A stretch of DNA of 33,614 nt from an uncultured Kangiella sp. (GTDB lineage Bacteria > Pseudomonadota > Gammaproteobacteria > Enterobacterales > DSM-103792), in the NCBI GenBank assembly GCA_946481205.1, contig CAMLNB010000009.1:1-33614 (forward strand). The letters run 5' to 3'. The translations under genes were made by a program, and so were the position numbers. The notes under the pieces were generated by a model that was not told the origin of the DNA, ran no database searches, and saw only the letters and a list, made by a program, of their open reading frames with translations. Below are positions 9,954 to 29,857 of the stretch, one piece after another (the stretch's first letter is position 1; each line of letters opens with the position of its first letter).

Positions 9954-10017
9954 CCGCTGGGATTGTCACGACAGTGTAGTCAAGCCGGCCCGAAAACCCG
10001 TCCCCTTGCTTTGCTGC

Positions 10018-10773
10018 TCAGGCCGCGGCAGCGCTGCTGCTGGCGGTATCGACCGCGGTTCCGGCAAACCGGCGCCGATAGGCCCGTTCCCACAGCACGT
10101 TGGCGGTGATGCCAATCACGGCCGGGGCAATCCACGGCAGCACGCCCCAGGCACCGTCCAGCCAGACACTGAGCACCGAGCGGGCACCGAAAACGAAGAA
10201 CGCGGTATGAAACGCAATGCCAAGACCGATGCCCTGCCCCATATGTTCATAGAACCAGGCTTTCGCTTCACGCTGCGGCGACAACAGATGGCGACGCATG
10301 CTCCACATGTTTAAGAAGCCGATCGGACTCAGCGCCAGCATCACGGCGCTGGCTTTCGATGGCAGGCCAATCGCCACCGCCAGCAGCAGCACGCTGGACG
10401 CACCGCTGAGCCAGACGCAGGCCCAGGCCAGGGGCAGGCGCAAGCCGGTCATGTTCTGCTTGTTCAGCACGACATGGCGCATGTACCAGCCGCTGATCAG
10501 CACGCTGATGCCGAGGTAGCCGAGAAACAGCAGAAAACCGAACATCGGCAGCTGGCTGACCGCGCGCCCCTGCAGTGCCGGCAGCAACAAATTGACGATG
10601 ACCGAGACCAGTGCCGACACCCCGATAATGTTCACGCACCACAGAAAACCGCGGCCGAACTGCTTGTGCAGCGGCGACCCCTTGCGACTGAAAATCGGTA
10701 CCCAAAACAGCACCAGGCCGACCGCGCCCGCCAGCACATGCACCCAGCGCAGACCGATAAGAAAGGTTTCCAT
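10018..10773 (-). CDS. seven-helix membrane protein, DUF2306-like
   Basis: 251 aa, started at the ATG at 10773, which has GGAGG 9 nt upstream; an open frame continues further upstream but is low-complexity and lacks a signal. Seven hydrophobic helices are visible, beginning with LRWVHVLAGAVGLVLFWVP. The pattern of a helix-1 His followed by LHKQFGRGF resembles DUF2306-type proteins, in which conserved His could bind heme, but this is a tentative match. Further His residues occur in WYMRHVVL, EHMGQG and GIAFHTAFF. The C-terminal tail is Ser/Ala-rich. It lies divergent from the PHO-box-controlled PstS-like gene and upstream of the HDOD gene. Function unknown. Confidence 0.6.
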   Translation of the reverse strand: METFLIGLRWVHVLAGAVGLVLFWVPIFSRKGSPLHKQFGRGFLWCVNIIGVSALVSVIVNLLLPALQGRAVSQLPMFGFLLFLGYLGISVLISGWYMRHVVLNKQNMTGLRLPLAWACVWLSGASSVLLLAVAIGLPSKASAVMLALSPIGFLNMWSMRRHLLSPQREAKAWFYEHMGQGIGLGIAFHTAFFVFGARSVLSVWLDGAWGVLPWIAPAVIGITANVLWERAYRRRFAGTAVDTASSSAAAA

Positions 10774-10972
10774 AGCAGCATTCCTCCCATTGAGTTCCCT
10801 GCTGGTGGTCATCATGGGAGTCGCCGTTTGCCGGCAACAGTGCCGGAAGTCATGGTCGGCGTAACAAGCTGCCAAGCCCGAAGCGCCGGGCCGGCATGCC
10901 TTACTCGGGATGGTGCGGTTTCCTGACCGGCAGCATTTCTGGACGGGCGCCATAAAGCCGCGGTGATATTCA

Positions 10973-11002
10973 CTGTCATAAGTGATGTCACAAAGCTGTC
11001 AT
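10973..11002 (+). promoter_or_regulatory. PHO box (PhoB-binding site)
   Basis: The 18 bases atgtcacaaagctgtcat at 10985-11002 match the PhoB consensus of two CTGTCAT-type half-sites 11 bp apart, with only the first base off. A third perfect half-site, CTGTCAT, sits at 10973-10979, 12 bp ahead of the pair. A poor -10 (TACCCT, 11013-11018) lies 10 bp after the box, the arrangement seen in PhoB-activated promoters that lack a -35. The ATG of the PstS-like gene is 50 nt downstream of the box. Confidence 0.8.
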
Positions 11003-11052
11003 CCACGGCCTCTACCCTGCGCGGGCCCGAACTCCCTAAGCCTTGCGAAATC

Positions 11053-12396
11053 ATGAACAAAATTCTGCTTGTCTGTCTCAGCACCCTGATGGTCAGCGCC
11101 GCTGGTGCCACATTGTGGCTGCGTCAGGATGCGACAGAAAAGCCGCTCAGCACCGAAACACCCGCACGCATTGCCCTGCGCATTCACGGCTCCAACACCG
11201 TCGGCGAAAAGCTGATGCCGGCGCTGGTCACCGCGTTTCTGGAGCAACAAGGCTACGCGCTGGTTCGTACCGAAGTTGGCGAACAACTGGTCGAGAAAAA
11301 AGTGGTGGCGCGCGTGCACAGCACGCGGCAACCGTTGGCGGTGGAAATCCATGCCCACGGTTCGACCACGGCATTCGATGATCTGGCCGCCAGCACTACC
11401 GATCTCGGCATGTCGTCGCGCCGGGTCAAGAGCGAAGAAGTCGAGAAGTTGAAGGCACAGTACGGCGACTTGACCGATCCCAAGCAAGAGCACGTGATTG
11501 CACTGGATGCATTGGCGATCATCACCCATCCGGAACATCCGCTGCAGCAGCTGACCATCGAGCAGATCGCCCAGATCTTCGCTGGCGACCTAAGCGACTG
11601 GTCGCAGCTGGGCCTGCCAGCCGCGCCGATCACGCTTTACGCCCGTGACGACAAATCCGGCACCTACGACACCTTCAAAGAACTGGTGCTGAAGAAATTC
11701 GACAAGAAAATCAGTGGCGATGCCCGCCGTTTTGAATCGAGCGAAGAGTTGACCGAATCGGTTCGGCAAGATCGCAACGGCATCGGCTTTGTCGGCGTTG
11801 CCTATGCCGAACGCATCAAGCTGATCGGCGTCTCGGCCGATGGCAAGAAGGCTTTCACCAAACCGGCCAAGCACAACATCGGCACCGAAGGATATGCGCT
11901 GTCGCGTCGGTTGTACGTCTATGAGCCGGCCAATCACAACAACGAATTGGCGCGCGAATTTTTAGCCTTTGCCGTGTCCGATGCCGGGCAGCGATTGGTC
12001 GAAGACATTGGCCTGATCTCGTATTACCCGACTCGCGACAAACCGCGCGTGGCGCTGCAACCGTTCCCGGCGCGTTACCAAAGCTTGGGTACGCTCGGTG
12101 AGCGGCTGAGCGTGAACTTCAAGGTCGATAACAATGCCTTGGTCGAGGACAGCAAAACCCAGCGCGATCTTGGCCGCGTTGCCAACTTCTTCCGTGATCA
12201 TCCGGAGAAACGCTTGGTACTGGCAGAGATGAGCCCGCCAAGCAACACCGGTATTCGCGGCAGCCAGCAGGCACTGCAGCAATTGGAGAACCAGCTGCAA
12301 GCCGTCAGTCTGGTGCCGTATGACAAAGTCAAAGTGGAATTCGGCCCGGACAACTTCGAAGCCATGGCCGGTCAGATCGAGATCTGGGCGCTCTGA
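11053..12396 (+). CDS. PstS-like phosphate-binding protein fused to degenerate OmpA-like domain
   Basis: 447 aa from the ATG at 11053; an in-frame extension to 10963 would run through the PHO box and is rejected. The Shine-Dalgarno sequence is poor. The N-terminal helix (residues 4-22) is a signal peptide or anchor. Residues about 38-335 form a phosphate-type periplasmic binding protein: RIHGSNTVGEKLMP (43-56), STTDLGMSSRRV (114-125) and RDDKSGTYDTF (198-208), the loops that hold phosphate in PstS. Residues about 350-447 resemble an OmpA/MotB C-terminal domain (VNFKVDNNALVEDSKTQ, then VANFFRDHPEKRLVL). The usual GHTD is replaced by LAEMSPP, and no NxxLSxxRA motif remains. It should act in the periplasm under phosphate starvation. 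No pstCAB genes are present here. A strong terminator follows, and PhoX is next. Confidence 0.85.
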   Translation: MNKILLVCLSTLMVSAAGATLWLRQDATEKPLSTETPARIALRIHGSNTVGEKLMPALVTAFLEQQGYALVRTEVGEQLVEKKVVARVHSTRQPLAVEIHAHGSTTAFDDLAASTTDLGMSSRRVKSEEVEKLKAQYGDLTDPKQEHVIALDALAIITHPEHPLQQLTIEQIAQIFAGDLSDWSQLGLPAAPITLYARDDKSGTYDTFKELVLKKFDKKISGDARRFESSEELTESVRQDRNGIGFVGVAYAERIKLIGVSADGKKAFTKPAKHNIGTEGYALSRRLYVYEPANHNNELAREFLAFAVSDAGQRLVEDIGLISYYPTRDKPRVALQPFPARYQSLGTLGERLSVNFKVDNNALVEDSKTQRDLGRVANFFRDHPEKRLVLAEMSPPSNTGIRGSQQALQQLENQLQAVSLVPYDKVKVEFGPDNFEAMAGQIEIWAL

Positions 12397-12447
12397 GTAA
12401 AAACGCGTCGCGGCAGTGCCATCGCAGGACCGCACGCGTTCGCATCA

Positions 12448-12469
12448 AGCCCGCTTCGGCGGGCTTTTT
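12448..12469 (+). terminator. rho-independent terminator after the PstS-like gene
   Basis: Stem AGCCCGC/GCGGGCT with a stable TTCG loop, followed by five T. It lies 52 nt past the stop and separates this gene from phoX transcriptionally. Confidence 0.9.
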
Positions 12470-12497
12470 CATTTTCCTGACATCAAAGCGTCGCGAG

Positions 12498-12532
12498 CTG
12501 ATCACATTTTGTTCAACTCCCCCTCCTAGCAT
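12498..12532 (+). promoter_or_regulatory. possible degenerate PHO-type direct repeat before phoX
   Basis: CTGATCA (12498-12504) and TTGTTCA (12509-12515) share 5 of 7 bases and begin 11 bp apart, the phasing of PhoB half-sites. TAGCAT (12527-12532) lies 11 bp further on as a -10 candidate. Identity to the PHO consensus itself is low, so this is a guess from spacing and from the gene it precedes. Confidence 0.25.
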
Positions 12533-12568
12533 GGGTAGCGCGTCGATCCCGACTGCCAGGAGCTCACC

Positions 12569-14785
12569 ATGGATACTGATCGTATTGATGGACCGCAGCA
12601 TGAACCGTATTCCGATCCGGATGCGGATGTCATGCCCGGTAGTAAAGACCGCCCTCAACAAGCGGAAGCTCTGGAGAGCCTGATGCAACGCAGGCTGTCG
12701 TCTCTGGTGAATGGCGAGAAGGTTTCTCGTCGTGATGTCATGCATAGTTTCGGCATTGCCGCGGCAGCGGTGCCAGTGCTGAGCCTTGCACCCAGCGCGC
12801 TGTGGTCGCCGCCCGCCGAAGCGGTGGCGCAGGCACTGCGGCCCAATGCCGATCCGACCGGTTTGGGTTTTCAGGCCATCACCGGTGGTGTGGACGATGC
12901 GGTTCGCGTGCCGGACGGTTATCAAGCCGATGTGTTGATACGCTGGGGCGATCCGCTCATCGCCGGCACGCCGGCGCTCGACGTCGGCAATCTTGCCAGC
13001 CTGCTCGAACCCGGTGCCGGTGAATTGCAAGCACGCCGCTTTGGCTACAACTGCGACTTCAATGGTTTCTTTCCACTGCCGCATCCGTTCGGCAGCAATC
13101 CGAACGCCGGTCTGCTCGCGGTCAATCACGAATACACCACTGAGGAACTGATGTTCCCGGGCTGGACCGAGACGACACCGAGTGCATTCGTGACTGCGCA
13201 TCCGGAAGCCGTGAACGTAATGAAAGCGGCACACGGCATGTCGATTGTCGAAATCCGCAACAGCCGCGATCGCTGGCGTTATCGGCCGGGCTCGTTCTAC
13301 AACCGACGCATCACCGCCGATACGCCGATGCAACTCACCGGCCCGGCCGCCGGCAATGATCTGCTGAAGACCAGCGCCGATCCGAGCGGCTTTACCGTGC
13401 TCGGCACACTGAACAACTGCGCCGGAGGTGTGACGCCCTGGGGCACCGTGCTGACCTGCGAAGAGAATTTCGATCAGTACTTCGGCAATTTCAACGCGCT
13501 GCGCAGCCGTGCCGAACAAACTGGCGATGTGGCGCTGCAGCGTTTGGTGCAGCTGCACCGCCGCATTCCGTTGCCGGGTAACCGCAGCGAACGGGCCTGG
13601 GAATTGATCGACACCCGCTTTGACATCAACTTGCACCCGACCGAACCGTTCCGCTTTGGCTGGGTCGTCGAAATCGATGTCTACGATCCGCAATCGATGC
13701 CGAGAAAACGTACCGCGCTTGGTCGCTTCAAACACGAAGGCGCGACGACGGTGATCGCCAGCAATGGCCGTGCGGTAATTTACTCCGGTGACGACGCCCG
13801 CTTTGAGTATGTGTTCAAGTTTGTCAGCCGCGATGCCGTCCAGCGTAACGCACGCGGCCAGCGCAATCCGAACAGCGAATTGCTTGATCATGGCGTGCTG
13901 TATGTCGCTCGCTTCAATGACGATGGCAGCGGCGTATGGCTGCCACTGATCTGGAGCAGCGTGCCGAACGATCCGAACAATCCGCTGAATCCCGCCAACG
14001 GTTTTCTGAGTCAGGCGGAAGTGCTGATCGATGCCCGCCGCGCTGGCGATGTGCTCGGCGCCACGCCGATGGATCGGCCGGAAGATGTCGAAGCCAATCC
14101 GGTCAGCGGTTATGTCTACGTGGCGCTGACCAACAACACTTCACGCACCGGTGGCAGCCGCGATGCGCAGGGCCGCACCGTCAACGCCGAAGCCAACGCC
14201 TCGAATCCGCGCAAACCGAATCGCCATGGCCATGTCATCGAATTGCGCGAAGACAATGACGATCACACCAGCACGGCGTTCGCCTGGGATATTTTCCTGC
14301 TCTGCGGCGATCCGGCGGCTGGCTTGCTGACCGAATTGCCGTCTTTGCCGATTGCGCAAGATCAGACCTACTTCGCCGGTTATGGCGATGCGAGCGCCAT
14401 CAGCAAACTCGGCGCGCCGGACAATTTCGGTTTCGACCGGCGCGGCAATTTGTGGATCAGCACCGATGGTCAGCGCGGCCCCGTTGGCATCAACGACGGT
14501 GTCTATGCCGTGGCCACCACCGGCAGCGAACGCGGTCGCGCCCGTCAGTTCATGAGTGCGCCGGCTGGCGCCGAGATCTGCAGTCCGGAATTCAACAGCA
14601 ATGGTGAAGCGCTGTTTGTCGGCATCCAGCATCCGGGCGAAGGTGGCACGCTGACCAATCCGGTCAGCGACTGGCCGGATCGCGGCGGCAAACCGCCGCG
14701 GCCGAGCGTGGTCGCGGTGATCAAGACCGGGCCCGGCAGCAAGGAGATTGGTGCCGGCAACGACCGCCTCGGCCGTCGCCGCTGA
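12569..14785 (+). CDS. phoX: PhoX family alkaline phosphatase (DUF839), Tat-exported
   Basis: 738 aa, with AGGAG 7 nt before the ATG. The twin-arginine signal is at residues 53-57 (SRRDV), followed by the hydrophobic stretch FGIAAAAVPVLSLAPSA; the long polar N-region before it is common in PhoX. Family landmarks follow: FGYNCDFNGFFPLP (158-171), LLAVNHEYT (182-190), and NNCAGGVTPWGTVLTCEEN (282-300), which contributes acidic and Cys residues near the metal centre. Further landmarks are RFEYVFKFVS and, near the end, PDNFGFDRRGNLWISTDGQ. PhoX enzymes use iron and calcium to release phosphate from diverse organic esters in the periplasm or outside the cell. The adjoining PHO-box-driven PstS-like gene fits a phosphate-starvation role. 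It has its own terminator. Confidence 0.93.
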   Translation: MDTDRIDGPQHEPYSDPDADVMPGSKDRPQQAEALESLMQRRLSSLVNGEKVSRRDVMHSFGIAAAAVPVLSLAPSALWSPPAEAVAQALRPNADPTGLGFQAITGGVDDAVRVPDGYQADVLIRWGDPLIAGTPALDVGNLASLLEPGAGELQARRFGYNCDFNGFFPLPHPFGSNPNAGLLAVNHEYTTEELMFPGWTETTPSAFVTAHPEAVNVMKAAHGMSIVEIRNSRDRWRYRPGSFYNRRITADTPMQLTGPAAGNDLLKTSADPSGFTVLGTLNNCAGGVTPWGTVLTCEENFDQYFGNFNALRSRAEQTGDVALQRLVQLHRRIPLPGNRSERAWELIDTRFDINLHPTEPFRFGWVVEIDVYDPQSMPRKRTALGRFKHEGATTVIASNGRAVIYSGDDARFEYVFKFVSRDAVQRNARGQRNPNSELLDHGVLYVARFNDDGSGVWLPLIWSSVPNDPNNPLNPANGFLSQAEVLIDARRAGDVLGATPMDRPEDVEANPVSGYVYVALTNNTSRTGGSRDAQGRTVNAEANASNPRKPNRHGHVIELREDNDDHTSTAFAWDIFLLCGDPAAGLLTELPSLPIAQDQTYFAGYGDASAISKLGAPDNFGFDRRGNLWISTDGQRGPVGINDGVYAVATTGSERGRARQFMSAPAGAEICSPEFNSNGEALFVGIQHPGEGGTLTNPVSDWPDRGGKPPRPSVVAVIKTGPGSKEIGAGNDRLGRRR

Positions 14786-14875: not shown

Positions 14876-14944
14876 GCTTGTGAGCTGATCACCGAGCCGC
14901 TGGCGCTGCCGAATTTCCCGGCTTTTCTTGCGCTATATCAACTC

Positions 14945-14994
14945 TTGCCATGACCTATACGTAGAAAATCTAAATGCGATTTGTTATCATTTAC
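14945..14994 (+). promoter_or_regulatory. candidate promoter and Fur box for tonB-exbBD
   Basis: TTGCCA (14945-14950) and TCTAAA (14969-14974) are 18 nt apart. Immediately downstream, the 19 bases at 14976-14994, read on the minus strand as gtaaatgataacaaatcgc, match the Fur consensus at 12 of 19 positions by my alignment. The local AT-rich dip supports a regulatory region. The site would block transcription when iron is plentiful. Confidence 0.5.
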
Positions 14995-15029
14995 TAACCT
15001 TATCGCGCGATGTTGCCAAGGTGTCTGGA

Positions 15030-15668
15030 TTGCGCCTGTCTTCTCTTCCTGTCTGTTTGCTGACCGTCAGCCTGCTGCACGGTGGCTTGCTGGCGGCCGC
15101 CCTGCAGGCTGGCGACGTGTTGCCGGCACCGGCGCCGCAGCCAGCGCCCGAGGTCACCATCCAGCTGATCCCGCCGGCGCCGCCGGTGGTCAGCGCCCCG
15201 GTGCCCGAGCCGCTTGCCGAACCGGAACCGGTACCTGTCAGCAAACCGACGCCACAGCCGAGCCCGAAACCCCAACCGAAACCGGCCGAGCCGGATCTGT
15301 TTGCGGCGGTCAGTACCGAACCGACACCGGCCCCAGCTCCCACCGAGGCCGTTGCCGAGGCGGCACCAGTGGCAGCCCCCAGTGAACCGCAGTTCGACGC
15401 CGATTACCTGAACAACCCGGCACCGGTTTACCCGAGCCTGTCACGCAAGCGCGGCGAACAGGGCGTGGTGCTGTTGCGCGTACATGTGCTGGCCGATGGC
15501 CGCGCCGATCAACTGGAAGTGCTGGAGTCGAGCGGTTACGAACGACTCGATGACGCGGCACTGCGCGCGGTCAAGCGCTGGCAGTTTGTTCCGGCCAAAT
15601 TGGGCGATGAAGCGGTCGCCGCCTGGGTGCGGGTGCCGGTGCGTTTCGATTTGAGTACGGCGAGCTGA
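15030..15668 (+). CDS. tonB: TonB energy transducer
   Basis: 212 aa from a TTG at 15030, chosen because AAGGTG lies 8 nt upstream and the protein then begins MRLSSLPVCLL, directly entering the membrane anchor (residues about 5-26). A GTG at 15021 lacks a ribosome site, and a TTG at 14928 would put the candidate promoter and Fur box inside the gene. His17 (SLLHGG) is the helix His typical of TonB anchors. A Pro-rich periplasmic spacer with PKP/PEP repeats covers about residues 30-115. The C-terminal TonB domain starts at APVYPSLSRKRGEQGVVLLRV and includes SSGYERLDDAALRAVKRWQFVPA. It transmits proton-motive energy from ExbB-ExbD to outer-membrane receptors such as the siderophore receptor encoded 1.3 kb downstream. 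Confidence 0.9.
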   Translation: MRLSSLPVCLLTVSLLHGGLLAAALQAGDVLPAPAPQPAPEVTIQLIPPAPPVVSAPVPEPLAEPEPVPVSKPTPQPSPKPQPKPAEPDLFAAVSTEPTPAPAPTEAVAEAAPVAAPSEPQFDADYLNNPAPVYPSLSRKRGEQGVVLLRVHVLADGRADQLEVLESSGYERLDDAALRAVKRWQFVPAKLGDEAVAAWVRVPVRFDLSTAS

Positions 15669-15744
15669 GCATGGCAAACCGCTCCGCGCACGCACAGCAC
15701 GGCGACACACTCCACTGAATTTTCAAAACTGACTGAGATCTGCA

Positions 15745-16470
15745 ATGAACAATCCGTATGGCATTTCAGCGATGTTGGAAAAAGGCGACGCGGTCACCTT
15801 TGCCATCGCCATTACCCTGCTCGTGATGTCGGTCGTCAGCTGGACCGTGATGGCGGTGAAAACCGTGCAATTGATGCGGCTGCGCCGGCTGGCGCGCAGC
15901 GTCAACCACGAGTTCTGGCATGCCCACAGTTTTGACGAAGCCCTGAAAAGCATCGGCGAAACCGCCACCAGCCCGTTCCGTCTGCTGGCAGAAGAAGCCC
16001 GCAACGCGGTCGCTCACCACGCCCAGCACAGCAGCGATTTGCACGCACAATTGAATGTCAGTGATTGGCTGTCGAGCTGTTTGCGCCGCGCCATTGAAGA
16101 TGCCACCGCGCGTTTGCAAAGCGGCCTCGCCGTGTTGGCAACCATCGGTTCGACGGCACCGTTTGTTGGCTTGTTCGGCACGGTCTGGGGCATTTATCAC
16201 GCGCTGGTAGCCATCGGTGTCAGCGGCCAGGCCAGCATTGACAAAGTTGCCGGCCCGGTCGGCGAAGCGCTGATCATGACCGCGTTTGGTTTGTTCGTTG
16301 CGATCCCTGCGGTGATGGGTTTCAACGCGCTGACCCGTGGCAACAAAGCGCTGGTGATGCGCTTCGCGTCGTTCGCCCATGATCTGCACGCCTACTTCAT
16401 TACCGGTGCCCGCGTCACCGGCAAACCGACCGATCAGAGTGGTGCGCTGCGCGCCGTCGGAGGCCGCTGA
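15745..16470 (+). CDS. exbB: ExbB, MotA/TolQ/ExbB proton channel
   Basis: 241 aa, with GAGATC ahead of the ATG. Three membrane helices are expected at about residues 17-38, 128-150 and 173-197. The segment LAVLATIGSTAPFVGLFGTV, continuing as WGIYHALVAIG, is the conserved channel motif of the family, and VGEALIMTAFGLFVAIPAVM is the third helix. It forms the pentameric scaffold around ExbD that powers TonB in the inner membrane. It lies 76 nt after tonB, and its TGA overlaps the exbD ATG by one base (TGATG), indicating coupled translation. The pairing with exbD and tonB points to ExbB rather than TolQ. Confidence 0.93.
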   Translation: MNNPYGISAMLEKGDAVTFAIAITLLVMSVVSWTVMAVKTVQLMRLRRLARSVNHEFWHAHSFDEALKSIGETATSPFRLLAEEARNAVAHHAQHSSDLHAQLNVSDWLSSCLRRAIEDATARLQSGLAVLATIGSTAPFVGLFGTVWGIYHALVAIGVSGQASIDKVAGPVGEALIMTAFGLFVAIPAVMGFNALTRGNKALVMRFASFAHDLHAYFITGARVTGKPTDQSGALRAVGGR

Positions 16471-16886
16471 TGGCCTTTTCCAATGGCGATAATTTCGACG
16501 CCAGCGATGAGGTGATGGGCGAGATCAACATGACGCCGCTGGTCGACATCATGTTGGTGCTGCTGATCATCTTCATCATGGCGCTGCCGGTACTGACCCA
16601 GACGCTGCCGGTTGATCTGCCGGATGCCGACGCCCAACCGAATGAACAGGTTCCGGATCTGGTCCAGCTCGGTGTCACCGCGAGCGGCACACTGCTCTGG
16701 CAGGGCGCGTCCATCAGTGAGGCCGAGCTACCGGCCCGGCTACAAGAACTGACTCAGCAGCAGCCGCAACCGCCGCTGCAAATCCAGGCCGACCGGGCCG
16801 TTGCTTTCGAGCACGTCGCCCGCGTACTGGCCGCGGCACAGAAAGCAGGCATCAAGCAACTGGGTGTGCTGACCGAGCCGAAATAA
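16470..16886 (+). CDS. exbD: ExbD, TonB-system proton channel subunit
   Basis: 138 aa with one membrane helix (about residues 23-43) and a periplasmic domain. The helix contains MTPLVDIMLVLLIIFIM; D26 is the conserved protonated Asp that the motor depends on (equivalent to D25 of E. coli ExbD). The periplasmic part ends in RVLAAAQKAGIKQLGVLTEP, the usual family close. Translation is coupled to exbB through TGATG. The three genes tonB-exbB-exbD form one operon ending at a hairpin 8 nt past the exbD stop. Confidence 0.93.
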   Translation: MAFSNGDNFDASDEVMGEINMTPLVDIMLVLLIIFIMALPVLTQTLPVDLPDADAQPNEQVPDLVQLGVTASGTLLWQGASISEAELPARLQELTQQQPQPPLQIQADRAVAFEHVARVLAAAQKAGIKQLGVLTEPK

Positions 16887-16893
16887 GCATCAA

Positions 16894-16935
16894 AAAGGCT
16901 GGAATCGCCATTTTCTGCGTTCCGGCCTTTGTTTT
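16894..16935 (+). terminator. rho-independent terminator after exbD
   Basis: Eleven-bp stem AAAGGCTGGAA/TTCCGGCCTTT (one G-T pair) with a 15-base loop, then GTTTT. It separates the tonB operon from the receptor gene. Confidence 0.8.
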
Positions 16936-16938
16936 CTG

Positions 16939-16970
16939 TTGATCTTTTATTGCGAATCATTATCATTCGC
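16939..16970 (+). promoter_or_regulatory. promoter with overlapping Fur box for the siderophore receptor
   Basis: TTGATC (16939-16944) and TATCAT (16961-16966) are 16 nt apart. gcgaatcattatcattcgc at 16952-16970 is a near-palindrome matching the Fur consensus at 14 of 19 positions. It covers the -10, the usual place for Fur repression. The receptor ATG is 46 nt downstream. Confidence 0.75.
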
Positions 16971-17015
16971 GCGTTTATTTGATTTGGCGCAAAAGGCGCC
17001 TTTTGGGGAACCGCC

Positions 17016-19151
17016 ATGAACTTCAGGAAGACACCGCTCGCCGCTGCCATTGCCCTGTGCAGCACCCTGCCCGCTTTCGCCAGCGAACCGGCCAAAGAAG
17101 CCGACGAGACCCAGCTGAAAGAGGTCAAAGTGACTGCCGAACGCGAGGCGCCGGCCTACAAACCGGAACAGTCCAGTTCGCCGAAATACACTGCCCCGCT
17201 GCGCGACACCCCACAGTCGGTTACCGTCGTGCCCCGCGAAGTGTTTGAAGATCGCGGCGCGGCAACCCTCGGCGATGTACTGCGCAGTGTCTCGGGCATC
17301 AGCTTGGTCGCTGGTGAAGGCGGCGGTGCCCGTGGCGATAACTTCCGCATCCGCGGCTTCGCTGCCAATACCGATATGTTTGTCGATGGCATGCGTGATA
17401 TCGCCCAACAATCCAACCGCGATCCGTTCAACCTGGAATCGGTCGAAGTCGCCAAAGGTCCCTCGTCGACCTATACCGGTCGTGGCGCTACCGGCGGCAG
17501 CATCAACATGATCAGCAAGCTGCCACAGCAAGAGGATTTCATCGGCGGCACGGTCGGTGTCGGCACAGAGGGTTATCGCCGTGTTACTGGTGACGTCAAT
17601 CAAAGTCTGACCGACAGCATCTCGCTGCGTCTGAACCTGATGAGCCACGACAACGATGTCGCTGGTCGTGACATCACCACCAATAGCCGCACAGGTTTCG
17701 CCCCATCGTTGGCCTTCGGTCTCGGCTCGGCAACACGCATCATTGCCAGCTACCAACACGTTGAGCATGACAACATCACCGACTACGGCCTGCCAACCTT
17801 CCAAGGTCGTCTGCAAGACAGCACGGGCACACCGTTCGGCAGCAGCTTCGATACCGAAAATTGGTATGGCTTCCGCAACCTCAATACGGAAGAGCAAGAA
17901 GACAAACTGGCGACCCTGCGCCTGGAGCACGACTTCAGCAGCAATGTCAGCTTGATCAGCCAGTTGCGTCAGGTTGACAACGATCTGTACAGCATCGTTA
18001 CACCGCCGCGTAACCAGAGCGTTGTTAACAACACCGTCACGCATAACCCAAGCGTTCGTGACTCAACCAATGAATTGCTGATCAACCAAACCGATCTGCG
18101 TATTCGTTTTGAGACTGGCGGCTTTGAGCACACCATCTCGACGGGTTTTGAAGTTTCCGACGAAACGTTTGATAACCAAGCGTGGACGGCGACACCGACC
18201 GCTCCGCTCGACAGCCTGTACAACCCGAATCCCTATCAAGCCTATAACCCGACGTTCTCCCGCGGTAACCTGGTCGAGAACGAAGCCGACAGCACCGCGT
18301 TCTACGTATTCGACACCATCAAGCTGAACGATCACTGGCAGGTGAATCTCGGTTTGCGCCGTGACATCTTCGATCTGACCAGCACCACCATCAGCAATGC
18401 AGGTGTCGAAACCGCCCGTACGTCACGTGAAGACAAAATGACCAGCTGGAATGTTGGCGCGGTCTACAAGCCCAGCGAAGCTGGCAGCATCTACGTGGCC
18501 ATGGCTACCTCGTTCAACCCGTCCGCGGAAGGCGGCACACTGGCGGCAAACCTTGAAGCGGTGAAACCGGAAGAAAGCGAGAGCATTGAGCTGGGCACCA
18601 AGTGGGATCTCGCTGATGGCAAAGCCGCATTCAACGCTGCGGTGTTCCAGATCGAAAAAACCAACGCCAGAACTCGCGAGCTGACCACCGATCCGTTCAC
18701 CCTGACCGGTGCCCAGGAAGTACGCGGCATCGAGTTGGGCCTGTCCGGTCATATCACTGACAATTGGGCGGTGTTCGGCAGCTACACCCACCTTGACAGC
18801 GAAATCACGGATTCGGCAAACCCGGCTGAAGAAGGCAACGAGATCGGCAATACTCCATCGGACACGCTGAACCTGTGGACCACGTTCGTGATCGTCAAGA
18901 ATCTCGAAGTCGGCTTGGGTGCGCAATACCTGTCCGAGCGTACGGTCAGCAATACCGTCACCACGGAATTGGAGGACTACTGGCTCTATGAAGCGATGGT
19001 CGGCTACAAACTGACTCGCAGCATCGACCTGCGTCTGAATGTCTACAACCTCACCGATGAATTCTATTTTGAAAAATTCCACGGTGGTGGTGCCCACGGT
19101 GTACCAGGCGCGGGTCGCACAGCGGTACTGAACGCCAGCTTCCAGTTCTGA
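17016..19151 (+). CDS. TonB-dependent siderophore receptor (Fiu/catecholate-like)
   Basis: 711 aa, with GGGGA before the ATG. The signal peptide is cleaved after AFA (residue 22). LKEVKVTAERE is a likely TonB box region. The plug domain spans about residues 55-165 and shows LRDTPQSVTVVPREV, then LGDVLRSVSGIS, FRIRGF, MFVDGMRD and VAKGPSSTYTGRGATGG. The rest is a 22-strand barrel ending in the outer-membrane C-terminal Phe (NASFQF). The plug pattern is that of siderophore rather than vitamin or sugar receptors. The adjoining PiuC gene recalls the E. coli fiu-ybiX and Pseudomonas piuA-piuC pairs, which favours catecholate siderophores; the ligand itself is inference. It has its own Fur-controlled promoter and a terminator. 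Confidence 0.9.
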   Translation: MNFRKTPLAAAIALCSTLPAFASEPAKEADETQLKEVKVTAEREAPAYKPEQSSSPKYTAPLRDTPQSVTVVPREVFEDRGAATLGDVLRSVSGISLVAGEGGGARGDNFRIRGFAANTDMFVDGMRDIAQQSNRDPFNLESVEVAKGPSSTYTGRGATGGSINMISKLPQQEDFIGGTVGVGTEGYRRVTGDVNQSLTDSISLRLNLMSHDNDVAGRDITTNSRTGFAPSLAFGLGSATRIIASYQHVEHDNITDYGLPTFQGRLQDSTGTPFGSSFDTENWYGFRNLNTEEQEDKLATLRLEHDFSSNVSLISQLRQVDNDLYSIVTPPRNQSVVNNTVTHNPSVRDSTNELLINQTDLRIRFETGGFEHTISTGFEVSDETFDNQAWTATPTAPLDSLYNPNPYQAYNPTFSRGNLVENEADSTAFYVFDTIKLNDHWQVNLGLRRDIFDLTSTTISNAGVETARTSREDKMTSWNVGAVYKPSEAGSIYVAMATSFNPSAEGGTLAANLEAVKPEESESIELGTKWDLADGKAAFNAAVFQIEKTNARTRELTTDPFTLTGAQEVRGIELGLSGHITDNWAVFGSYTHLDSEITDSANPAEEGNEIGNTPSDTLNLWTTFVIVKNLEVGLGAQYLSERTVSNTVTTELEDYWLYEAMVGYKLTRSIDLRLNVYNLTDEFYFEKFHGGGAHGVPGAGRTAVLNASFQF

Positions 19152-19177
19152 TCAACGCGTCAGCGCTGTTGTCAAAA

Positions 19178-19214
19178 CGAAACCCCGTTGTCATAACGGG
19201 GTTTCGTCCTTCTT
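19178..19214 (+). terminator. terminator after the siderophore receptor
   Basis: Twelve-bp perfect stem CGAAACCCCGTT/AACGGGGTTTCG with a five-base loop, followed by a T-rich but broken tail (TCCTTCTT). Confidence 0.8.
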
Positions 19215-19300
19215 GATCTGGCCCAACGCAATAACTGACGAATCCGCTAAACTGCCACTTGCCTGTGCCCGTCCATACGTGAGCTCCCGGAGTCCCTGCA

Positions 19301-19981
19301 ATGTTATTGACCATCGCCAATGTACTAAGCCCGGATCAGGTCGCCACGTGTCGGCGCCAACTCGATCAGGCTAACTGGGTAGACGGCAAAATCACGGCCG
19401 GTTATCAGTCGGCGAAAGCCAAAAACAATTTGCAACTGCCAGAATCAGATCCGACCGCTCAAGCCATTGGCGATGTCATTCTGACCGCGCTGGCGCAAAA
19501 TGCCTTGTTCATGTCCGCCGCATTGCCGTTGCGGGTGTTTCCGCCACTGTTCAATTGTTATCAAGGTGGGCAGTCATTCGGTGTGCACGTCGACAACGCC
19601 ATTCGCGATCACCGCCCCACCGGTACCCGTATCCGTACCGATCTGTCCTGCACCTTATTCTTCAGCAATCCGGACGAATACGACGGCGGCGAATTGTTGA
19701 TTGAAGACACCTACGGCGCGCACAAAGTAAAACTGCCGTCAGGTCATATGGTGCTGTATCCGTCGACCAGTCTGCACAAGGTTACACCGGTCACCCGCGG
19801 TGCCCGGATTGCGTCGTTCTTCTGGCTGCAGTCGCTGGTCCGTGATGATGGCCAACGAACGCTGCTGTTTGATCTGGATACCGCCATTCAACGCCTGAAT
19901 CAGGACACGCCAGACAATCCGGCGCTGGTGCAGCTGACCGGCGTGTATCACAACCTGCTGCGGCGCTGGTCGGACACCTGA
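19301..19981 (+). CDS. piuC: PiuC/YbiX-type Fe2+-dependent PKHD hydroxylase
   Basis: 226 aa, with GGAG 8 nt before the ATG. It is an Fe(II)/2-oxoglutarate oxygenase of the PKHD type over its full length: iron ligands H96 and D98 (FGVHVDNA) and H159 (SLHKVTPV), with R169 (GARIAS) to bind 2-oxoglutarate. The segment [20 protein letters not shown] is the core jelly-roll. Family members are Fur-regulated partners of siderophore receptors, and the position just after the receptor fits. The substrate is not established; a role in siderophore or iron handling is inferred. A terminator lies between the two genes and no Fur box was found in the 87-nt gap, so its transcription may depend on read-through or an unrecognised promoter. 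Confidence 0.9.
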
Positions 19982-28721: not shown

Positions 28722-29857
28722 ATCGGCAGCACCACCACGCTTTCCGGCGCCCAGCTGACGTAGACCTCGTCATCCCAGGTCGGCCGCTCGCTGACATCAC
28801 GTTCGAAGTTGGAAGCATTGGCCAGGATCTTTTTGCCACTTTCCAGCTTGACGTGGTACACCGAATGGCTGCCGAAATAGGCGATGTTGATCACTTTGCC
28901 ACGCGAGACATTGTTTTCCTGCGCCGGTTTGGCTTTGCTGACATCAATCTTTTCCGGTCGCACCGCCGCCCACATGGTTTGGCCTTGCTCACCGGTAATA
29001 CCGTGATTGATGAAGATACGGGTTGGCAGATCCGGCGTTTCGATTTCGCAGCGATCCGGCTCATCCACGGTCAGCTTGCCTTCGAACATATTGATCGAAC
29101 CGATGAACTCGGCACTGAACCGGCAGTTCGGCGTTTCATAGACCTGCGCCGGCGCTCCGACTTGCAGAATCTTGCCCTTGCTCATGATGCCGATGCGCGA
29201 CGCCATGGTCATCGCTTCTTCCTGATCATGGGTCACCATGACGCAGGTCACGCCCACTTTCTCGATAATATCGACCAACTCGAGCTGCATACGCTCGCGC
29301 AGTTTTTTGTCGAGTGCGCCCATCGGTTCGTCGAGCAGCAGCAATTTCGGCCGCTTCGACAGCGAGCGGGCCAGGGCCACCCGCTGTTTCTGGCCACCGG
29401 ACAACTGATGCGGTTTGCGCTTGGCATAGGGCGCCATGTCGACCAGCTTCAGCATTTCTTCAACGCGGGCGGTAATCTGATCTTTTGGCAAACCATCTTG
29501 CTTCAAACCGAACGCGACGTTGTCGGCGACCGTCATGTGCGGAAACAGCGCGTAGGACTGGAACATCATATTGGTCGGTCGTTCATAGGACGGCACTTTG
29601 GCCATGTCCTGACCGTCGATGGTGATGCGGCCTTCAGTCGGTTTCTCGAAACCGGCCAGCATCCGGAGCAACGTCGATTTGCCGCAGCCTGAGCTACCGA
29701 GCAGAGCAAAAATCTCACCTTTGCGTATCGACAGCTCGACGCTATCGACCGCCGTGAAATCACCAAAGACTTTACTGACTTTTTCGATCTTGACGTAATT
29801 CTCGTCGGTCTTCGGTTTGGCCGCTGCAGGATTGGCCGGTTTCTCGACTGCCGCCAT
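28718..29857 (-). CDS. potG: putrescine ABC transporter ATPase PotG
   Basis: 379 aa from the ATG at 29857, chosen because GGAG lies 5 nt upstream; the frame runs open to 29938 without a ribosome site. An Ala/Pro/Lys-rich lead of about 20 residues precedes the ATPase. Walker A is GSSGCGKST (54-62), the Q-loop MMFQSYALFPHMTV (97-110), the signature LSGGQKQR (152-159), Walker B LLLLDEP (172-178), and the switch His H210 in VMVTHDQEEA. The C-terminal TOBE-type domain (about 280-379) is that of spermidine/putrescine importers. It hydrolyses ATP to drive uptake through PotH-PotI. The preceding 266-nt gap contains the potF terminator, so expression must come by read-through or from an undetected promoter. 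Confidence 0.93.
   Translation of the reverse strand: MAAVEKPANPAAAKPKTDENYVKIEKVSKVFGDFTAVDSVELSIRKGEIFALLGSSGCGKSTLLRMLAGFEKPTEGRITIDGQDMAKVPSYERPTNMMFQSYALFPHMTVADNVAFGLKQDGLPKDQITARVEEMLKLVDMAPYAKRKPHQLSGGQKQRVALARSLSKRPKLLLLDEPMGALDKKLRERMQLELVDIIEKVGVTCVMVTHDQEEAMTMASRIGIMSKGKILQVGAPAQVYETPNCRFSAEFIGSINMFEGKLTVDEPDRCEIETPDLPTRIFINHGITGEQGQTMWAAVRPEKIDVSKAKPAQENNVSRGKVINIAYFGSHSVYHVKLESGKKILANASNFERDVSERPTWDDEVYVSWAPESVVVLPI

Follow-up and report, generated by a model that had tools for sequence, protein, structure and literature searches.

Genes and features of the locus

The window, by which we mean the whole stretch of 33,614 nucleotides of DNA that was analysed, comes from an organism close to Permianibacter. 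It carries an orphan gene for a phosphate-binding/OmpA-like protein (P0001, called the target here), which lies between a divergent gene for a membrane protein and a phoX-type gene. The features of the locus are the following.

10021..10773, minus strand: divergent 251-aa membrane protein (judged by hydrophobicity), sharing its intergenic region with the target gene; ATG at 10773 chosen as start
10973..11002, plus strand: PHO box with three TGTCA half-sites at 10973, 10985 and 10996
11013..11018, plus strand: candidate -10 element, TACCCT
11053..12396, plus strand: orphan phosphate-binding/OmpA-like protein gene, 447 aa, ATG at 11053, stop ending at 12396
11056..11130, plus strand: residues 2-26, predicted N-terminal membrane-anchor helix (AlphaFold2 helix, hydrophobic-run scan)
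11167..12057, plus strand: PstS-type periplasmic binding domain, residues 39-335, with conserved phosphate-loop positions
12070..12393, plus strand: residues 340-447, OmpA-like predicted fold that has lost the peptidoglycan-binding Asp, Arg and NRR
12447..12466, plus strand: hairpin with T tail resembling an intrinsic terminator, 3' of the target gene
12465..12486, plus strand: PHO-box-like site upstream of phoX, the second-best of the window (score reached by 3 of 2000 shuffles)
12569..14785, plus strand: phoX-type alkaline phosphatase (PF05787, E 4.9e-149)

A start further upstream, given by a 477-aa open reading frame with GTG from position 10963, was rejected because the coding sequence would then include the PHO box. 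The PHO-box-like site of phoX overlaps the end of the terminator-like hairpin.

It had been stated in a preliminary description of this DNA that phoX and a divergent membrane protein are the nearest genes, and the PF05787 match and the hydrophobic sequence bear this out. The divergent protein gave no Pfam match and has 166 homologues at E<=0.001. Its divergent order with the target gene is the same in the window and in two relatives, G075 (locus L167) and G030 (locus L168), and among the 80 loci compared its cluster is found in these three only. The neighbour clusters of the 80 loci were classified by eye, and the pst genes there were tested by BLASTP. A functional link to phoX on the grounds of adjacency was rejected, since phoX is absent from the fetched stretches of G075 and G030 and lies within four open reading frames of the target gene in just two of the 80 loci, the window and L019. 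In G075 the order is divergent membrane protein, target, TonB, ExbB, ExbD, TonB-dependent receptor and further genes, and phoX does not stand between them. In the window, genes for TonB, ExbB, ExbD, a TonB-dependent receptor and a PiuC-like protein (assigned by eye, 14928-19981) adjoin the phosphate genes and possibly form an iron cluster. In a plasmid search, one of 70 records covered at least 80% of the query.

A PHO box upstream of the target gene and of its relatives

The box consists of the half-sites CTGTCAT (10973-10979), ATGTCAC (10985-10991) and CTGTCAT (10996-11002), with start-to-start distances of 12 and 11 bp. This agrees with the strong box described before, with two half-sites 11 bp apart and a third 12 bp upstream. 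It is the sole spot of the window, on either strand, where three TGTCA occur within 40 bp. Using a two-unit score with 11-bp spacing, we found that it is also the top-scoring site of the whole window; the weights of this score were set by hand and follow the E. coli consensus. When the 279-bp region upstream was shuffled 2000 times with its dinucleotides kept, no shuffle reached this score. A pair of half-sites does not by itself single out this position, since the simple pattern CTGTCATNNNNNTGTCA, with at most two mismatches allowed, occurs six times in the window (shuffles: mean 2.47, with 3 of 100 reaching six) and the target site itself has two mismatches to it.

In G075 a matching box stands at the corresponding position with the identical spacing of 12 and 11 bp, followed by the same CTCTACCCTGCGC. 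The more distant G030 also has an upstream site (p 0.01, letter shuffles, row L155). The -10 consensus is TATAAT, and the candidate TACCCT, a weak match to it that lies inside the CTCTACCCTGCGC common to the window and G075, may be the -10 element; a consensus scan of 10000-13000 returned no sigma-70-like promoter. As a positive control, the top PHO site in a 17-kb stretch with the pst genes of G075 was located 137 bp before pstC, and in the 20-kb stretch of G075 that holds the target gene the top site was the one upstream of this gene.

Such sites are widespread in the family. An upstream site was found at p<=0.05 in 67 of 103 members and was not significant in the other 36, each member being compared with 100 letter shuffles and 27 of 130 matched loci being excluded as repeats or for having less than 300 bp upstream. 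The forward strand gave the better score in 86 of these members and the reverse strand in 16, with one tie. Moreover, the sites are enriched before the target genes in comparison with neighbouring open reading frames at these loci (48 of 79 against 55 of 491; for scores of at least 25, 20 of 79 versus 3 of 491; one of the 80 loci was omitted), where the p-values overstate independence because many of the positives are related Pseudomonas. Judged from its upstream sequence, the gene looks phosphate-starvation controlled, presumably through PhoB.

The pst genes are encoded elsewhere

At E<=1e-5, nothing in the window matched the PstC and PstA queries, those of the short type included. The PstS query matched only the target itself and the PstB query only an ABC ATPase at 29102-29794 (29%), which belongs to a polyamine-type set (by eye). 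We then used the seven proteins of the pst-pho cluster of G075 as queries for the neighbourhoods of the 80 loci. Among the 612 open reading frames within four of the target, BLASTP returned no match for PstC, PstA, PhoU, PhoB or PstS, one for PstB (30%, the PotG-type ATPase of L168) and one for PhoR (29%), and four short-type PstC and PstA queries found none over the same range.

In G075, pstC, pstA, pstB, phoU, phoB, phoR and pstS lie in a row on a contig other than that of the target gene, and in all 22 tested genomes that carry a family member (16 of 16 and 6 of 6) PstA was found above the cut-off. The claim that the gene comes without pstCAB therefore holds locally, for the window, and not genome-wide. 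A separate pstSCAB, which had been proposed as a search of the genome, turned up in the relative G075, on another contig. The view that there is no importer in the genome was rejected on account of the whole pst set of this relative. By analogy, the organism of the window would be expected to have a pst cluster of its own. The cluster of G075 (L169:2273-6199) encodes a long PstC of 757 aa and a PstA of 540 aa; the PstA reading frames of other carriers have about 425-457 aa.

Binding domain and N-terminus

The target matches PF12849 over residues 93-310 (E 1.2e-29, 104.4 bits versus a cut-off of 27), and the model of its binding domain is closest to phosphate-binding proteins, some of them with bound phosphate (4gd5, Foldseek E 6.5e-20). 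The cut-off of TIGR02136 is missed (170.3 versus 206.6 bits). In the best 120 of 1689 homologues, G103, S104, T106, R123, R198, S202, G203 and T204 are present in all 120, S122 and D199 in 119, and G46, S47, N48 and T49 in 118 with two gaps. We take these conserved loop positions to be the contacts of the phosphate ligand. The phosphate-binding-protein fold and phosphate-loop motifs named in the preliminary description are thus confirmed by the profile match, the Foldseek match and the near-invariant loop positions.

Residues 4-23 contain no charged residue and no N, Q, H or P, and AlphaFold2 predicts a continuous helix from residue 2 to 26. A similar run (at least 18 residues free of charges, N, Q, H and P) precedes the GSNT in 12 of 14 proteins of the 'lost' type and in 15 of 19 of the 'dR' type. 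By this heuristic and the predicted helix, the N-terminus is probably a membrane anchor, which would place the protein at the inner membrane. In the relatives P0016 and P0017 a lipobox takes the place of the membrane helix, so that the type of anchor has changed and anchoring has been kept. The N-terminus of the Pseudomonas members differs from that of the target (by eye). In canonical members, more than 75 residues precede the GSNT in 73 of 85 cases, and many have a segment some 75 residues long ahead of the membrane helix, with a conserved Tyr and weaker motifs (67 aligned). This segment, which presumably lies in the cytoplasm, showed no Pfam family common to those canonical members (P0018-P0121) that were scanned. 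The target does not have it.

A predicted OmpA-like fold without the wall-binding residues

A C-terminal OmpA-like domain had been proposed, and the predicted fold supports this: modelled alone, the domain reached a pLDDT of 88.3 with AlphaFold2 and matched domains of the OmpA/Pal/MotB type (Foldseek and VIA). Structure prediction of both parts, as had been suggested, hence gave a binding-protein fold and an OmpA-like C-terminal fold. Neither a Pfam OmpA match nor the wall-binding residues were found. PF00691 has no match in the target at E<=1 and matches 10 of the 28 members of the family alignment A1, and a sequence search of the PDB with the eroded domain alone returned no OmpA chain at E<=5. 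Comparing the alignments of the eroded and the intermediate forms (A2 versus A3) with hhalign gave a probability of 98.0.

According to the accessible text of PMC5974059, Asp271 and Arg286 of AbOmpA bind diaminopimelate. When aligned to a canonical member, the target has Pro395 at the Asp position and a gap at the Arg position, and in the motif alignment it lacks the whole peptidoglycan-binding set of Asp, Arg and NRR. Of 120 family proteins, the best of 1689 homologues, 85 have the full set (P0002, which is the window itself, was dropped, and one of the 120 rows is a fragment that does not cover the region). For the Kangiellaceae-type rows the two alignments differ on the Arg, which is a gap in the motif table and R in the tree alignment, and row L144 was scored in the latter as having both D and R, yet the two are three residues apart versus 15 in the canonical P0031. 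In L115, L119, L124, L125, L130, L039 and L040 the Asp is replaced by Ala and the remaining OmpA domain is recognisable; they represent intermediate stages of motif loss. As far as the model goes, the OmpA-like domain is eroded, with its predicted fold kept and the residues that grip the wall lost. A wall-anchored reading is not transferable to the target, because the target lacks both the Pfam OmpA signature and the residues that bind peptidoglycan.

The loss follows a split, moderately supported (SH-aLRT 86), in a tree for which only the binding domain was used; this tree, of the 120 listed homologues (best of 1689) and 23 loci picked manually out of 101, is unrooted, comes from a quick search and has long branches that meet. 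The natural split between members with and without the wall-binding residues raises a direct question on wall tethering and phosphate capture.

Relation to known proteins

The architecture has been described before. It is that of Psp3 and of the proteins named 'phosphate ABC transporter substrate-binding/OmpA family' by NCBI, found in Pseudomonas, Rheinheimera and Cellvibrio and including PP_3818 of P. putida; Psp3 and PP_3818 are equated with the family by their described domains alone. Like these, the target has a PstS-type domain followed by a C-terminus that is predicted to fold like OmpA, though in the target it is without the sequence signature, and is encoded apart from pst, with PHO sites upstream in many members. 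Unlike many canonical members, it has no Asp/Arg/NRR, no PF00691 match and no long N-terminal segment. Its identity to the ten OmpA-bearing members of A1 is 36-42%, and all are joined in one tree. P0004 is the family protein of Permianibacter sp. IMCC34836. A second search, of genome contigs, gave 491 matches, 80 of which were listed, and a family match at E<1e-60 was obtained for 41 of the 394 genomes that were sampled from the order to which G003 belongs.

With PstS proteins of the TIGR02136 type (4omb/4pqj, 1twy of V. cholerae, 4q8r of C. perfringens) the target shares the fold and the phosphate-loop positions; its identity to the PstS of G075 is 29% over 242 columns. It differs from them by the membrane helix, the extra C-terminal domain, the separate locus and the score below the cut-off. 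From the PF00691 domains of Pal, the OprF C-terminus, AbOmpA and MotB it is set apart by the missing sequence match and wall-binding residues.

Previous studies have touched on the family. In the accessible part of Lidbury et al. 2016 (PMC5082522), Psp3 with its OmpA domain is reported from all Pseudomonas screened. It was detected in the exoproteome of P. stutzeri DSM4166 under Pi stress and regarded as secreted, and the OmpA domain was taken as a sign of outer-membrane location (PMC5082522, same part). PP_3818, described as a substrate-binding protein that carries an OmpA domain, is said to be little known (PMC9358898, accessible text). The same text reports that the P. putida strain PSAG-4, which lacks pitA, pitB and both pstSCAB and, by the order of the deletions, retains PP_3818, did not grow within 72 h in Pi minimal medium, and that deletion of PP_3818 from a strain already without Pit, Pst and phnCEptxBC was accompanied by a lower final OD on phosphite. 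The failure of PSAG-4 on Pi medium with PP_3818 retained speaks against PP_3818 being a self-standing importer, and as its loss has an effect without PstCAB, a role solely as a feeder of PstCAB is disfavoured, so far as this portion of PMC9358898 goes. That PstS/OmpA annotations exist and are poorly studied, as was said earlier, agrees with the NCBI family name and with what the accessible parts of PMC5082522 and PMC9358898 say of Psp3 and PP_3818. Orphan fusions of a Pi-binding and an OmpA domain are common and look Pho-regulated, and within our partial literature search only these two papers mention one and, in their accessible parts, assign no function to it.

Discussion

Overall, the reading that we favour, with somewhat less than even confidence, is that of a PhoB-induced Pi receptor or buffer, tethered to the inner membrane, which works for PstCAB in trans and belongs to a clade from which the wall anchor has been lost. 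Under low phosphate, PhoB would switch the gene on via the three-repeat PHO box. The uncleaved N-terminal helix would hold the protein to the inner membrane on its periplasmic side, and the binding domain would capture Pi, in the strain of the window perhaps Pi freed nearby by PhoX. The protein may then serve as an additional receptor or as a local store of Pi and hand Pi over to the housekeeping PstCAB encoded elsewhere; Pi binding, control by PhoB, the place at the inner membrane and the hand-over are inferred. In most of the listed relatives (best 120 of 1689), the residues of the OmpA domain would also tie the protein to the peptidoglycan. On the side of Permianibacter and the Kangiellaceae these residues are gone, and the fold appears to be retained under purifying selection. 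Because of this combination, the C-terminal domain of the target is, on the model, probably a spacer or a protein-interaction module. We consider it unlikely, although worth naming, that the OmpA module is a converted wall anchor that has become a selected docking surface, by which the tethered Pi receptor feeds or gates a distant PstCAB-PhoR in trans. What had been suggested before, that the protein buffers phosphate at the envelope or hands it over and is no importer on its own, is kept here together with the PHO box, the two folds and the separation from pst; the absence of pst is limited to the locus, and a wall-anchored reading is given up for the target.

The protein could instead be a sensor, in which the anchored binding domain, Pi-loaded or empty, signals to PhoR, PhoU, PstCAB or another membrane partner, of which the divergent membrane protein is a possible example, and so tunes the Pho response. 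The predicted single-pass anchor joined to the binding domain would suit this, as would the presumably cytoplasmic segment in many canonical relatives, the divergent protein, which the target retains as a neighbour in G075 and G030 as in the window, and the effect that losing PP_3818 has in cells already without Pst (PMC9358898, accessible text). The protein of the window, however, has neither this segment nor an output domain, and the cluster of the divergent protein is limited to three of the 80 loci. We hold a sensor to be rather improbable.

We give the same low credence to an ordinary spare PstS, of which the binding domain alone matters and serves PstCAB, the C-terminal domain being an inert leftover. 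The similarity of the TIGR02136 type would agree with it. Moreover, on the side of the target the C-terminal domain shows more divergence than the binding domain (mean ratio 1.59, 21 pairs), and in three canonical groups it shows less (0.61-0.81). Decay of the domain was nevertheless rejected, since its dN/dS is about 0.18 (0.222/1.267, window versus G075), a rough value as it comes from one pair, by NG86 only and with a dS of 1.27. The residues R351, D372, R375, E443 and W445, invariant in 28 of 28 aligned members, also speak against decay.

Still more doubtful is a Pi scavenger that is released or located at the outer membrane, like Psp3 of Pseudomonas, with a cleaved signal peptide and a function beyond the inner membrane. 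The exoproteome finding for P. stutzeri and the outer-membrane reading of the OmpA domain, both in the accessible part of PMC5082522, are in its favour, and the former is more easily explained by a released than by an anchored protein, which counts against the receptor that we prefer. In the target, A17-G18-A19 form an AxA-like site that could permit cleavage (by eye). Against release stand the 20-residue run free of charged and strongly polar residues, which ends in L-R, the unbroken predicted helix of residues 2-26 and the loss of the wall-binding residues.

Finally, a ligand other than orthophosphate, such as phosphite, phosphonate or pyrophosphate, might be read from the phosphite phenotype of PP_3818 (accessible text of PMC9358898), and seems very improbable in view of loop positions that are near-invariant in 120 members (best 120 of 1689) and of a fold nearest to phosphate-binding proteins, among them some that were solved with phosphate bound.
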